NCBI GenBank assembly: GCA_035624455.1
Contig: DASPRM010000099.1
Location: forward strand, 1-50,279
Length of the DNA stretch: 50,279 bases
Direction of reading: 5' to 3'
Source: Terriglobales bacterium
GTDB lineage: Bacteria > Acidobacteriota > Terriglobia > Terriglobales > Acidobacteriaceae
Shown: in pieces, positions 4,198 to 29,891 of the stretch
Layout: each line of letters opens with the position of its first letter
How positions within the stretch are numbered: position 1 is the first letter of the stretch
Translations under genes and position numbers: made by a program
Notes under the pieces: generated by a model
The model's database searches: none
Seen by the model: only the letters and a program-made list of their open reading frames with translations
Told to the model about the DNA's origin: nothing

Positions 4198-5988
4198 ATG
4201 AGAAAAACTCAGCCACTCTTCGTCTTCGCTCTCGTCGGGTATCTGCTAACTTTGATGCCGGCGTTAGCACAGGGGAAACCTGCAGTCGCCACTATGCCGG
4301 TTTCCGAAATCCATCCGGGTATGAAGGGCTATGCCCTCACGGTCTTTCAGGGTGCCAACCCGGAACCCATGGATATCGAAGTCCTGGGCGTTCTCAACAA
4401 CGCCATCGGGCCCAAGCAGGACATGATCCTGATTCGGCTCAAGGGTTCCAAGCCTGAATACACCGGCGTTGTCGCCGGGATGAGCGGTAGCCCGGTGTAC
4501 ATCGACGGCAAGCTGGTCGGGGCGCTCGCCTATCGCATCGGCGAATTTTCCAAAGAGCCCATTGCCGGAGTGACCCCAATCGCCCAGATGATGGAGATTG
4601 ACGAACTGGATCGCTCCGCGCCGCCCGCCGATGCCAGCAATACCCCTCCTGCCGCGCAGGTATTGGAAAAGACCTCCGGACCGGGTCTCCCGTCAACCTC
4701 GCTGGCCAACCTCGCCAGCATGATGACCCCCATCGACACTCCGCTGGTCTTCAATGGCTTCTCGGAAGATGCAGTTCGCCGTTTTCAGAGTCAGTTTGCG
4801 TCGGCTGGAATTGTTCCAGTGATGGGCATTGGTTCGGCCAGCCATCAGCCGCAGCCTGAGCCCCTAGAGCCCGGCTCCGCGGTCAGTGCGGTCTTGGTCG
4901 AGGGCGACCTCAATATTGCGGCCACCTGCACTGTCACCTATGTCGATGCCGACCACCTGCTGGCCTGCGGCCATCCGCTGTTGAAGTTCGGCCAGGTCGA
5001 TATCCCGATGACCAAGGCCAACGTGGTGGCGACACTACCCTCGCCGCTCAACGCCTTCAAGATCATCAACACCACCGAGCAGGTTGGTTCTTTCGTTCAG
5101 GATCGCAGCTCCGGCATACTCGGCCGCTTCAGCAAGGAGCCGGATATGATCCCGGTGACCTTGACCGTCCACGGCATTTCCAAGCCCCGCAATTTCCATT
5201 ATTCGGTGCTGAACAACGCGCGCCTCACTCCGGTTGCGGTGATGGCTACCGCCTACAGCGTCCTGCAGGGGCTGAATGAGTACGGCGAGGATGTTACCTA
5301 CCGCTTCCAGGGACGAATCGACGTAAACGGCTACCCCGAAGTCAAGATGCAGGACATGTTCTCGCCCACCGATAGCGGCACGCCCACTGCCGCCAGCGTT
5401 GCCCTTTCTCTCGGCGAGCGTTTCGGGCGCATCTACGACAATCCCTACGCCAAGCCCGACATCAAGAGCGTTCAACTCGATCTCGACCTGGTGCCCGAGC
5501 GCCGCTGGGCACGCCTGGAGGGCGCCCGCACTGACGTCACCGAAGCCCGTCCCGGCGATGACATCGTGGTCGAAGCCGCTCTGCGGCCCTATCGCGGCGA
5601 GCGTATCGTGCGCAAGATTCCCGTCCGCATTCCCACCTCGGCTCCCAAGGGCACGCTGCGCATCCTGGTGAGCGATGGCGACACCATCGACCGCATGCGT
5701 CGCATGGCGCCCACCTCGCGCCGCCTCGACCTGGCTTCCACCATCTCCATGCTTAACAACGAACGCTCCAACTACAAGCTCTATGTCTCGCTTTTGGAGG
5801 CCAATCCCGAAGCCATGGTGGAAGACAAGATCATGCCCAGCGTCCCGCTGTCGATCATGAACGTGATGGACGGCATGCGCGGCACGCAGGACATGGTAGT
5901 CCTGGGAGAGTCCGCGGTGAACGAGGCATCGACGCCCCTGGACTTTGTGGTTTCTGGCGCGCAGATCATTACCGTGAATGTGCGCTAG
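4198..5988 (+). CDS. Exported SpoIVB peptidase S55 domain protein
   Basis: A 596-residue protein with a signal peptide (residues 1-25, ending PALAQG). Residues about 35-130 resemble the S55 serine peptidase domain of the sporulation protease SpoIVB: HPGMKGYALTVFQG, DIEVLGVLNN, then GMSGSPVYIDGKLVGALAY with the candidate nucleophile Ser in GMSGSP. A later ACGHPLLKFG segment offers a conserved His. The remaining 350 residues are beta-rich and unassigned. No sporulation genes are seen nearby, so a role in envelope proteolysis or signalling is inferred. ATG 4198 is chosen because the signal peptide starts there; upstream in-frame codons give no secretion signal. The ribosome site is weak (GAGG about 14 bp upstream). 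Confidence 0.87.
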   Translation: MRKTQPLFVFALVGYLLTLMPALAQGKPAVATMPVSEIHPGMKGYALTVFQGANPEPMDIEVLGVLNNAIGPKQDMILIRLKGSKPEYTGVVAGMSGSPVYIDGKLVGALAYRIGEFSKEPIAGVTPIAQMMEIDELDRSAPPADASNTPPAAQVLEKTSGPGLPSTSLANLASMMTPIDTPLVFNGFSEDAVRRFQSQFASAGIVPVMGIGSASHQPQPEPLEPGSAVSAVLVEGDLNIAATCTVTYVDADHLLACGHPLLKFGQVDIPMTKANVVATLPSPLNAFKIINTTEQVGSFVQDRSSGILGRFSKEPDMIPVTLTVHGISKPRNFHYSVLNNARLTPVAVMATAYSVLQGLNEYGEDVTYRFQGRIDVNGYPEVKMQDMFSPTDSGTPTAASVALSLGERFGRIYDNPYAKPDIKSVQLDLDLVPERRWARLEGARTDVTEARPGDDIVVEAALRPYRGERIVRKIPVRIPTSAPKGTLRILVSDGDTIDRMRRMAPTSRRLDLASTISMLNNERSNYKLYVSLLEANPEAMVEDKIMPSVPLSIMNVMDGMRGTQDMVVLGESAVNEASTPLDFVVSGAQIITVNVR

Positions 5989-6291
5989 GGTCCGGGTCTT
6001 CAGATCTCGCGATCGCCGATCACACGACCACCCGATATCCCTGAGGGTGCCCCGTTCAAGCAAAGCTTGGCGGGGTAGTTTGTTCGCTAACCAAACCCAG
6101 TTCGCTAACCAAGCCCAGCTTCATGACCTCCAACTGTCATCCTGAGCGACGCGCCCGCCTTGGCTTTCCGACCCGCGCTTTTCGCGGGTCGCGGGCGCGG
6201 AGGCGAAGGATCTTGCGTTTCATCCCATCACGAATACGGGTCTGCGGTTCTGAAATTACCCGATTACAACTTTCCCGATTGCCCCGTGTCC
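5989..6291. repeat. Intergenic region with terminator repeat and GTCATCCTGAGCGACGC repeat
   Basis: Positions 6041-6081 carry the GAGGGTGCCCC terminator-like hairpin in the sense of the upstream gene. Positions 6135-6220 carry the TGTCATCCTGAGCGACGC repeat with a GACCCGCG/CGCGGGTC palindromic core, ending AAGGATCTTGCG. About 6250-6290 is a CCCGATT-rich run. No gene is seen. Confidence 0.65.
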
Positions 6292-28476: not shown

Positions 28477-28481
28477 AGTGC

Positions 28482-28624
28482 GATCGGGTAAAGGCAGAAG
28501 TAGGAAGTCAGAAGTAAGAAGTAAGATCGGATGATCTGCAAAGTTTGAAGTATAGGCAAGGCTCTTGACTGGGGTTTTACTTCAGACTTCACCCGATCTT
28601 CTTGCTTCTGCCTTCGCCCGATCC
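28482..28624. repeat. GATCGGG-GGCAGAAG inverted-repeat element
   Basis: The left arm (from 28482: GATCGGGTAAAGGCAGAAG) and right arm (to 28624, inverse of GATCGGGCGAAGGCAGAAG) are inverted repeats with short internal repeats of AAGTCAGAAGT and ACTTCAGACTTC. It lies directly after ubiX. Related motifs appear near 40385-40435 and as CACCCGATC runs at 12758 and 27768. Confidence 0.55.
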
Positions 28625-28672
28625 GGTCCTCGCCTGCATCTCTACGGTAACTTCTCTAAGGTGAAAATCCCA

Positions 28673-28700
28673 TTGACAGCCGCCAGTGATGCGGTAAATT
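28673..28700 (+). promoter_or_regulatory. Sigma-70-type promoter of the 28.7-kb RNA
   Basis: Perfect -35 TTGACA (28673-28678), a 16-bp spacer and -10 TAAATT (28695-28700). The predicted start is near 28707. Confidence 0.6.
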
Positions 28701-28736
28701 GTGCCTACACTGAGAAAGGAGGTGATCCAGAATCCA

Positions 28737-28787
28737 ATGAGTTCTGATTGTCATAGATATAGCCACAGTGAGGTGCTTGAGGCTTAG
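28737..28787 (+). CDS. 16-residue peptide ORF within the candidate RNA
   Basis: ATG 28737 to TAG 28785 encodes MSSDCHRYSHSEVLEA. The start lies 6 nt after the end of the 18-nt 16S-complementary block, but 14 nt after the AGGAGG core, longer than ideal. The peptide is His/Ser-rich with no membrane segment. It may be a leader peptide or may not be translated. Confidence 0.3.
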   Translation: MSSDCHRYSHSEVLEA

Positions 28788-28923
28788 AGCCGGTCGCTCT
28801 AACCCTTTTGCCACACCTTCGGATCAGTCAGTGGTTGCGGCTGGACAGGCGCCGCTAACCGAAGGCCGTGGGACTGGTCACAGCCAGAGTGACCGCCTCA
28901 GGCCAATTTCCACAAGCTACCGG

Positions 28924-28966
28924 CGACCCGCAGTTCCTGCTCCGAGCTGCGGGTCGTGCCCTTTTT
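28924..28966 (+). terminator. Rho-independent terminator of the 28.7-kb RNA
   Basis: A perfect 10-bp stem, CGACCCGCAG and CTGCGGGTCG, around a 13-nt loop, followed by TGCCCTTTTT. The right arm and T tract recur with one mismatch over 27 nt at 29689-29715, after the next gene. Confidence 0.82.
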
Positions 28967-29019
28967 GGCCTATTTGCGGGTCCCCGAACTGAGATCGTTA
29001 GAATCGTAACCAGAGACGC

Positions 29020-29658
29020 TTGAAGATTGATACGTCCTCTCCAATTTGCCCTTGTACTTTTCCTGGTTCTTCCTCGTTGTGCTACAGGCCAGACACACTA
29101 ACGCTGAAGTTAACTAGAGAAGACTTGACCGTTTTGGGTGTAACGATTGGCTTAACCTCTAAGGCTGAAGTGGAAGCAAGACTTGGTAAGGCATCAATTT
29201 CTGAAGTCGGCCACGGCGACGAGGCGGAGGACGTGGCCTGCTATCGCTCCCAATCCAAACATGACGATACCATCATTGCTTTCTATTTTGGCGCTTTAGG
29301 TGGCTGGGTTGATGTGACCCGAATTTCAGTCTCCAACGCGCGAGCCTATCCTTTAGATGTCGAGAACTGTGAATCGAATAGGCAGGTTTCACGGAATGTA
29401 GAATTCCTGAGGAAGCTCAGACTCGGGTCGACCGTCGCAGAAGTAATTCGCGCTCTGGGCGCCCCATCCCACTCGAGCGCGAAGAGACTGTCTTACTACA
29501 CCTCTCACAAATGCGGATCCAGGTTGCCAGAATCAAGAAAGTCAGAGGCGAAATCCACCGCCAATTCCCCATGTGAGCTGGTGGATTCGGTTGATGCCAG
29601 GTTTACTTCGGATGGCAAACTTGAGTACGTGAGTTTCTATCATTTTGTTGAGAAATAA
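29020..29658 (+). CDS. Secreted protein of unknown function, frameshift between signal peptide and mature part
   Basis: The long frame is open from TTG 29020 and codes for about 185 credible residues from LTLKLTREDLTVLGVTIGLT onward. It contains two related segments, LGVTIGLTSKAEVEARLGKA and RKLRLGSTVAEVIRALGAPS, like a duplicated SmpA/OmlA-type or MlaD-linker motif. Its first 25 residues look non-coding. In the +1 frame, TTG 29027 begins a clean signal peptide (IRPLQFALVLFLVLPRC then ATGQTH) that stops at TAA 29099. A single-base indel near 29085-29100 would join the two. This is therefore a frameshifted gene, a sequencing error, or a case of recoding. Function is unknown. Confidence 0.6.
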   Translation: MKIDTSSPICPCTFPGSSSLCYRPDTLTLKLTREDLTVLGVTIGLTSKAEVEARLGKASISEVGHGDEAEDVACYRSQSKHDDTIIAFYFGALGGWVDVTRISVSNARAYPLDVENCESNRQVSRNVEFLRKLRLGSTVAEVIRALGAPSHSSAKRLSYYTSHKCGSRLPESRKSEAKSTANSPCELVDSVDARFTSDGKLEYVSFYHFVEK

Positions 29659-29891
29659 ATGCCCACCGGACAAAACAGGGCCGAGCGCTCCGAGCGGCGG
29701 GTCGTGCCCTTTTTGACCCGCGAAGACCTTTGTCATTTGAGTGCAGGCCGGGCAGAAGGAAGAAGGCGGGAGTCGAAGGGATCTCAACTTCGAGAGAAAC
29801 GCGAGGTCCTTCGATTCGGACGCGGGTCGCTGTACCGCGTCCTCGCTCAGGATGACAAGACGAACTTTGCCGGGGGAAAGGAGCGGAGCGC
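29659..29891. repeat. Repeat-derived spacer
   Basis: Positions 29689-29715 duplicate the terminator right arm of the 28.7-kb RNA and can form a GCGGGTC/GACCCGC hairpin. Positions 29731-29790 and 29810-29865 hold degraded TGTCATTTGAG...AAGGGATCTC and inverse CTCAGGATGACA units of the common GTCATCCTGAG repeat. No gene is seen. Confidence 0.5.

Follow-up and report, generated by a model that had tools for sequence, protein, structure and literature searches.

Why should a short, free-standing transcription unit open with a perfect complement of the 3' tail of 16S rRNA and follow it with a reading frame of only 16 codons? The question is raised by a locus near the middle of a 50,279-nt stretch of DNA from a Terriglobales bacterium of the family Acidobacteriaceae (contig DASPRM010000099.1), which in its entirety is referred to as the window. 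A sequence-only reading of this stretch had proposed that the locus is a self-contained RNA gene, and that its product might encode a leader peptide, control a secreted-protein gene downstream or bind ribosomes directly.

The locus reads as an RNA gene that spans positions 28673-28966 and comprises a promoter, a transcript of ~260 nt and a terminator (these and all coordinates below lie on the plus strand). The sigma-70-like promoter (28673-28700) is formed by a -35 element TTGACA (28673-28678), a 16-nt spacer and a -10 element TAAATT (28695-28700), and the intrinsic terminator (28924-28966) by a perfect 10-bp stem (28924-28933 with 28947-28956) and a TTTTT tract (28962-28966). All of these elements were read directly from the DNA, and they bear out the proposal of a self-contained unit. 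The transcript probably begins at TACAC (28706-28710), 6-7 nt past the -10 element, in which ACAC is conserved. When homologues were inspected by eye, without scoring, a TTG(A/C)-type -35 and a TA..T -10 element were found upstream of most copies inspected, and G+C hairpins occupied the place of the terminator in all 13 that were viewed for this feature. The predicted fold of the window RNA is more stable than those of 200 of 200 shuffled sequences (z -3.22). Just past the likely start lies an 18-nt block, AGAAAGGAGGTGATCCAG (28713-28730), that perfectly complements the 3' end of 16S rRNA and has a conserved core, GGAGGUGRUCC, at 28718-28728. It is followed by a mini-ORF running from ATG to TAG (28737-28787) that would specify the 16-residue peptide MSSDCHRYSHSEVLEA.

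Homologues of the unit are numerous. A DNA search returned matches in 14 of 61 genomes, including the window's own, and a covariance model built from 14 sequences, the window among them (R1), located the RNA in 51 of 297 genomes of the phylum; this first model is the narrower of two. The second model (R2), built from 68 sequences and containing a single helix (P1, described below), found the RNA in 104 of the 120 genomes of the family, which cover 57 of 62 genera, and gave no match in the other 16. The family genomes effectively hold one copy each: G017 has a second match that is a 26-nt fragment, and that of G021 is an overlapping one. R2, which had one Zixibacteria row in its training set, also detected the RNA in 39 of 98 genomes of the phylum to which the Zixibacteria genome belongs, 36 of them at E below 1e-10. 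Additional copies came from a scan of named genomes for the 5' end, in which 80 of 120 stretches were listed; the search pattern contained GGAGGTGGTCC, so the block is selected for in this set. The listed loci are mainly actinobacterial (Mycobacterium, Micromonospora, Nocardioides, Cellulomonas and others), and they also include two from Zixibacteria, three from alphaproteobacteria and one from Acidobacteria (L153, which looks to be on the same contig as L064). A 68-sequence set (A4) was assembled from 31 acidobacterial sequences (the window, 16 of a set of 48 homologues and 14 of a further set of 20), one Zixibacteria sequence and 36 scan loci that are actinobacterial or unplaced, with L063 omitted. 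To judge from these matches, the RNA is common to at least three phyla: Acidobacteriota, Actinobacteria and Zixibacteria. Exact matching of one pattern against viral contigs, as a search for phage carriage, gave no matches. Findings that would have undone the sequence-only reading at the level of sequence, such as homologues devoid of conserved structure or peptide or a match to a known repeat, did not appear: the homologues keep both the helices and the ORF, and no known repeat was matched.

The mini-ORF is real with regard to its frame and the position of its stop codon, both of which are kept across phyla. Near its 3' end lies a nearly invariant GAGGTG (28770-28775), which forms the codons for Glu-Val and is a second, 6-nt complement of the anti-Shine-Dalgarno sequence; it begins 15 nt before the stop codon (TAG, 28785-28787) and ends 6 nt before the last sense codon. 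The frame of GAGGTG is open from a start codon no more than 16 nt away from GGAGG in 48 of 48 and 20 of 20 acidobacterial homologues and in 71 of 74 listed scan loci, while the other two frames are open in 2 and 0 of the 48, 0 and 1 of the 20, and 16 and 1 of the 74; the counts are unweighted for relatedness and omit six of the 80 scan loci, three alphaproteobacterial (L081, L115 and L129) and three incomplete (L128, L135 and L148). All 139 open ORFs, and 139 of 142 sequences overall, have their stop codon exactly 15 nt from the start of GAGGTG (GAG GTG NNN NNN NNN stop). Two of the three misses (L096 and L133) arose because the script picked a second motif, and in both the ORF is open on reading; L123 is a true exception. 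Among 20 copies from the family that lie outside both models, 18 conform by script. In one of the remaining two (L267) the ORF is in frame and the stop codon comes one codon later; the other (L254), which the script pattern missed, has GAGGTA with the stop at +15, and its A would pair with the U of UACC in helix P1. All 14 Zixibacteria copies have the stop at +15, 12 by script and two (L223 and L229) that were passed over by a position filter and then located. ORF length varies from 11 to 22 codons among the acidobacterial copies, with the frame kept, and is 12 codons in nearly all actinobacterial ones. The conserved reading frame that marks a translated (dual-function) small RNA is present in this unit.

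One account of a conserved ORF is that the RNA is a plain mRNA for a micropeptide of 11-22 residues, in which the helices stabilize the message or tune its translation. Conservation of the ORF and its frame fits this account, as does the recurrence of N-termini rich in Ser, Asp and Cys among acidobacteria (MTSSDCS.., MKNSDGS..). The fraction of N-terminal changes that are synonymous, calculated from non-independent pairs, is 0.34 in close acidobacterial pairs as compared to 0.17 expected, and the peptide is therefore not wholly free; in the other two sets it is 0.12 against 0.19 expected (divergent pairs) and 0.28 against 0.21 (listed scan set). Against a plain message, N-termini vary between clades and phyla, and the most constant part of the frame behaves as RNA. 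The GAG and GTG codons have no synonymous variants in any of the 139 ORFs, the GTA of L254 being the one case among later copies, and the codon that precedes them is CGT, TGT, AGT or GGT in 136 of 139, so that the amino acid changes among four residues yet the GU is retained in a single RNA string, GUGAGGUG. The true exception, L123 (an uncultured actinobacterium MAG; 5971-6092, minus strand), points the same way, as it retains the block and has GAGGTG in another frame, and the stop codon of its unrelated 10-codon ORF is displaced by one base from the usual place (stop offset 14). The expectation that the 16 codons would change only synonymously, which the sequence-only reading had offered as a check, does not hold for the N-terminal half; the frame, the stop position and GAGGUG are conserved instead. 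Constraint on the ORF thus looks to act at the level of RNA rather than peptide, with mild amino acid selection at most on the N-terminal half, and the pattern suggests that evolution preserves the act of being translated more than the peptide that is made. We consider a plain micropeptide message unlikely, though it is the most serious of the alternatives.

The block that precedes the ORF was compared with 16S rRNA directly. AGAAAGGAGGTGATCCAG exactly complements CTGGATCACCTCCTTTCT, the end of the 16S DNA in two genomes of the same family (G012 and G019), which confirms the proposed 18-nt perfect complementarity; the window's own assembly was searched for a 16S gene with such a 3' end and none was found, so its tail is deduced from these relatives. 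The match is not due to chance: it is the single match to the block in the window even when three mismatches are allowed, none occurred in 100 shuffled sequences, and AAAGGAGGTGATCC occurs once in the 4.39-Mb assembly. With the tail taken from relatives, the duplex has a calculated energy of -34.1 kcal/mol. By comparison, for 26 frames in the window that stay open over 300 codons or more, and that are not necessarily all genes, the best Shine-Dalgarno sequences give a median of -12.2 and a best value of -17.8 kcal/mol. The full 18-nt complement was nevertheless rejected as a conserved unit. Among 148 sequences (the 48 and 20 acidobacterial homologues and the 80 listed of 120 stretches from the 5'-end scan), the window alone forms all 18 Watson-Crick pairs, the runner-up forms 15, and 141 form 9-12. 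When G-U pairs are admitted, 15-18 pairs form in 17 of the 48, 17 of the 20 and all 80 listed scan loci, whose search pattern contained the block; a frequent A-to-G change (GGUGAUCC to GGUGGUCC) preserves a G-U pair. In the other 31 of the 48, admitting G-U still leaves the run at 10-11 contiguous pairs, in many cases owing to one extra base (GGAGGAUGAUCC). The duplexes of the three sets have median energies of -29.6, -32.5 and -30.1 kcal/mol, respectively, and for these values, as for the pair counts, a single 16S tail, that of the window's family, was applied to every lineage. What is widespread among the homologues is the core GGAGGUGRUCC.

These numbers make direct ribosome binding through extended pairing plausible, and the extension past GGAGG need not serve 16S rRNA in every lineage. 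In actinobacteria, a nearly invariant GGAC in the vicinity of the start codon is a possible pairing partner for GUCC of the block, which offers an alternative reason for its conservation in a region where variation is too low for covariation to be informative. The window's ATG (28737) lies 14 nt after GGAGG, a distance that the sequence-only reading had judged non-ideal for initiation. This judgement is softened by the spacing of 6-15 nt in the 48 acidobacterial homologues, and by extended Shine-Dalgarno helices with longer spacing that are described in Staphylococcus aureus in a report that also names protein bS21 as a hindrance in Escherichia coli (PMC13009471). bS21 was matched in 39 of 40 genomes of the window's family; its presence may hinder an extended helix and counts against fully extended pairing, and the idea that extended pairing is tied to a lack of bS21 is unsupported within the family. 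As a separate observation, the sole genome of the 40 without a bS21 match (G012, genus g13) also lacks the RNA, a single coincidence, and the RNA is absent from a second genome of that genus (G383) as well.

Strong pairing with the 16S tail could also mean that the RNA works like SprF1, with its complement serving to titrate or inhibit 30S subunits, and that its ORF is incidental. The duplex energies given above and the purine-rich 5' end agree with such a role, for which SprF1 provides a precedent as a ribosome-binding small RNA (PMC8938821). A sponge would need neither a reading frame nor a fixed stop codon, yet both are kept; a strong Shine-Dalgarno sequence followed by a start codon is expected to initiate rather than block translation; and a single gene copy per genome counts against titration. 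To judge from these sequence features, titration of 30S subunits is rather improbable, somewhat more so than a micropeptide message.

The fold of the RNA ties the end of the ORF to the end of the transcript. RNAalifold was applied separately to an actinobacterial alignment made from sequence only (A5; 42 of 69 references with a clean 3' anchor, one further reference having been re-anchored) and to an acidobacterial alignment (A6; 28 of 68 sequences), and in both it returned the same long-range helix directly before the terminator, P1 (GGUGnCUG:CAGn(n)ACC). In the window, the 5' strand of P1 (GGUGCUUG, 28772-28779) starts within GAGGTG, and its 3' strand (CAAG-c-UACC, 28913-28921) contains a single bulged base; both strands are supported by RNAalifold and by pair counts. 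In acidobacteria a second helix, P2, is enclosed by P1 and, according to the acidobacterial alignment, pairs GGCU (28781-28784) with GGCC (28901-28904) and, in its inner part, GAG (28787-28789) with CUC (28897-28899). The stretch between P2 and P1 (28905-28912), an AAUCCC stretch in acidobacteria, is predicted to be unpaired; it reads AAUUUCCA in the window and AAUCCCAA in many acidobacterial copies. A local hairpin around the stop codon, P3 (UUAGAGC:GCUCUAA, 28784-28802), overlaps P2 and would form an alternative fold.

Pair counts, which cover A5 and A6, favor the long-range helices. In A6, 92.3% of the cells of P1 and P2 are paired, compared with a mean of 89.0% in shuffled alignments, and double changes occur at 8 of 18 pairs in 26 cells, values reached in 0 of 500 shuffles. 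In A5, P1 together with a 4-bp hairpin at the start codon is 97.6% paired as compared to 94.0% when shuffled, with double changes at 5 of 14 pairs in 20 cells (values reached in 1 and 0 of 500 shuffles). These excesses are to be read with the structures having been derived from the same alignments and with relatedness left in the shuffles, and a measure of further pair types exhibits no excess (73 and 183 of 500). Sliding the partner strand by 1-3 columns lowers the pairing to 22.8-50.5% and 29.1-48.0%. The GGU:ACC part of P1 is invariant in both alignments and hence uninformative. P3 is 86.8% paired versus 85.4% (29 of 500 shuffles), with a covariation score reached in 4 of 500, and we rejected it as the main helix on account of its weak covariation. 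This qualifies the local hairpins of the sequence-only reading, as the well-supported helix is the long-range P1. The first structure used in R1 (CUGAGGC:GCCUCAG with P3) was replaced once the actinobacterial sequences revealed P1, although R1 still found homologues. By the evidence of these alignments, the last codons of the ORF lie in a predicted long-range helix that covaries separately in two phyla. As for overall size, the modelled acidobacterial core measures between 159 nt (L021) and 306 nt (L054); by eye in A6, most of this variation falls between P3 and P2, as if at a tolerated insertion site.

Taken together, we favor with moderate confidence a stand-alone, structured and translated regulatory small RNA, in which an extended Shine-Dalgarno sequence recruits the ribosome and translation opens the fold. 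The extended sequence at the 5' end of the RNA (GGAGGUGRUCC, up to 18 nt in the window) would pair with the 16S tail and load a ribosome, which would then translate 11-22 codons of largely free sequence and arrive at a stop codon in a fixed place. Without a ribosome, the last five codons and the stop codon would be folded in P1 and P2 with the segment ahead of the terminator. A ribosome positioned at the stop codon would cover the 5' strands of both helices, and its anti-Shine-Dalgarno sequence could pair again, this time with GAGGUG, which lies 6 nt before the P-site codon, a normal Shine-Dalgarno distance; calculated duplex energies for this second site are -10.2 to -12.9 kcal/mol in four sequences. 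Loading and termination would in this way determine whether the RNA is closed or open, the open fold having a free 3' segment (AAUCCC...CAGnnACC), and the RNA would report on, or hold, translating ribosomes and act in trans.

The RNA of the window's clade has a flavoprotein gene (PF02441), presumably ubiX, before it and a convergent NUDIX gene (PF00293 in the window) on its other side; the shared NUDIX ORF faces the RNA from the opposite strand in nine related loci, and in L029 the order and orientation of these neighbors are swapped. A second clade has the RNA upstream of thiG and ruvC (PF05690 and PF02075, scanned in L031), with thiG in the same direction; the thiG ORF is common to 22 loci and the ruvC ORF to 15. 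The ORF downstream of the RNA in the window (29020-29658) was grouped with no ORF of the related loci. Since the neighbors differ between clades, the RNA appears to move as a unit and not as the leader of one gene. Two further observations concern the surroundings. Between the flavoprotein gene and the RNA promoter (28481-28625) there are imperfect inverted repeats (GAAGTAGGAAGTCAGAAGTAAGAAG... / ...CTTCAGACTTCACCCGATCTTCTTGCTTCTGCC) that by eye are REP-like. In addition, a 32-nt stretch of the terminator (28939-28970) recurs ~750 bp downstream at 29687-29718 with 94% identity; the two copies bracket the 212-aa ORF at 29020-29658, which has sub-threshold similarity to DUF3192/BamE, and the bracketed segment between the RNA and the NUDIX gene looks like an insertion or duplication.

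The short ORF, alternative helices and terminator of this unit resemble those of a leader or attenuator acting on the next gene, a role that the sequence-only reading had suggested with regard to the secreted-protein gene, and in the second clade thiG would be a same-direction target. Attenuators and leader RNAs are marked by a conserved downstream gene in the same direction, and here the neighbors vary by clade: the NUDIX ORF of the window's clade is convergent with the RNA, the neighbors of L029 are swapped, the window's downstream ORF did not group with ORFs of relatives, and no antiterminator is evident. Downstream control of this kind was rejected on the grounds of synteny, and we regard it as very improbable. 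That the block is stray antisense sequence from the 16S end or a 16S-derived repeat has a negligible likelihood and is refuted by the comparative data. The block does equal the reverse complement of the 16S 3' end, but the match stops at 18 nt; acidobacteria and actinobacteria keep the ORF, helices and surroundings, and Zixibacteria keep the ORF too; and at E<=0.001 the genome yields a single further match, the 32-nt terminator copy.

The structured, translated small RNA that we favor has a relative among annotated families. At the Rfam gathering score the window yields one tRNA and nothing in the region of the RNA, and at E<=10 positions 28600-29020 match only RF02471, RF01867, CC1840 and queA. 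The acidobacterial families Acido-1 and Acido-Lenti-1, to which the sequence-only reading had pointed, are not among the matches in this interval at that threshold, their presence by name in the library being unconfirmed. RF02471 (Ms_IGR-5), described in Rfam as an actinobacterial small RNA, matches the window with 22.3 bits (E 0.0027), below its curated cut-off of 45 bits, but over its full length (model positions 1-184 on 28707-28962) and with its parts in order. Same-family copies L006/L019 (49.5 bits), same-phylum L064 (47.3) and L215 from Zixibacteria (55.9) exceed the cut-off; L216 (42.8) is below it, and L065 and L010 are not listed at E<=0.001. When 60 genomes of the family were searched with the RF02471 model, 9 gave a match at E<=0.01, one of them above the cut-off. 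Ms_IGR-5 and the window RNA share the order ACAC, GGAAGGAGGUGGUCC, helix partner ahead of the terminator, and terminator, and the actinobacterial loci, when re-read, carry the same mini-ORF. The window also has P1, a helix defined here and not in Rfam, as GGUGCUUG:CAAGcUACC, with U-A where most copies carry C-G. They differ in that the ORF has 12 codons in nearly all actinobacterial loci as compared to 11-22 in acidobacterial ones, and in that the window RNA contains a bulged base in P1, has a different loop region and scores under the cut-off. On sequence grounds the window RNA is a divergent homologue of Ms_IGR-5 that itself falls below the Rfam threshold.

Ms_IGR-5 is a small RNA of mycobacteria and streptomycetes for which the available parts of the literature state no function. 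Its expression is supported by RNA-seq in Streptomyces lividans (PMC8079986), by a matching transcription unit in S. avermitilis (PMC8780764) and by a small RNA, annotated earlier, that overlaps it in M. smegmatis RNA-seq data (PMC10454040). Ribosome footprints on MS_IGR-5 are reported in M. abscessus and M. smegmatis, together with the authors' own warning that classical noncoding RNAs also yield footprints through co-sedimenting RNPs (PMC4974804). By analogy, these footprints support translation of the mini-ORF, and transcription and translation would be expected in the window's organism as well. Footprints aside, the passages of this literature available to us contain no coding or 16S-pairing role for Ms_IGR-5 and describe no ORF. 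As far as these literature searches show, the occurrence in Acidobacteriota and Zixibacteria, the mini-ORF with its fixed stop, the covarying helix around the stop codon and the link to the 16S tail are new, and they would give an RNA that was annotated but lacked an explanation the form of a testable device. If translation itself is the signal, bacteria would possess a conserved RNA that reads out ribosome availability, and some Rfam families classed as noncoding may likewise be translated.

Three other systems resemble the RNA in part. Trans-acting leader-peptide RNAs of the peTrpL type derive from attenuators ahead of an operon. The window RNA is unlike them in that no common operon lies downstream; peTrpL itself is reported as a short translated leader of Sinorhizobium that acts in trans (PMC7298713). 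SprF1 of S. aureus is also small and purine-rich at its 5' end, and it is reported to bind ribosomes, with an effect on initiation (PMC8938821); it is an antitoxin antisense RNA, whereas the window RNA has a conserved reading frame, and the likeness is confined to how the two may work. RF01867 (CC2171) matches the window with 19.6 bits against a cut-off of 75, chiefly through the 5' block, which places the window RNA outside that family; the model matched 15 of 57 genomes, one above the cut-off, and R2 gave weak matches in the three alphaproteobacterial genomes of the 5'-end scan (E 1.6e-7 to 2.2e-5). CC2171 loci nonetheless open with the same layout, a 16S-tail complement and then a mini-ORF. 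With GGAGGTG[AG] required by the script, the GGAGGUGR block and an NTG start codon 7 nt past GGAGG occur in 18 of 20 loci scanned (L217-L219 and L235-L250 among them), which represent 17 distinct places, as L243 is the place of L217; L248 and L251 lack the block in the stretch scanned. The ORFs of 18-35 codons are dissimilar in sequence, 17 of the 18 starting with Met-Ser, and the remainder of the RNA and the stop position differ from those of the window RNA. We therefore treat CC2171 as a parallel. A broader and more tentative proposal, possible but less likely to hold than the reading of the window RNA itself, is that Ms_IGR-5 and its acidobacterial and Zixibacteria relatives, with CC2171 in parallel, constitute an unrecognized class of ribosome-engaging RNAs. 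In such a class an almost full complement of the 16S tail would place a ribosome on a mini-ORF, and the peptide would hardly matter: termination at a stop codon within a conserved helix and re-pairing of GAGGUG with the anti-Shine-Dalgarno sequence would park the ribosome and flip the fold, and the RNA would sense free or intact 30S subunits and signal in trans.
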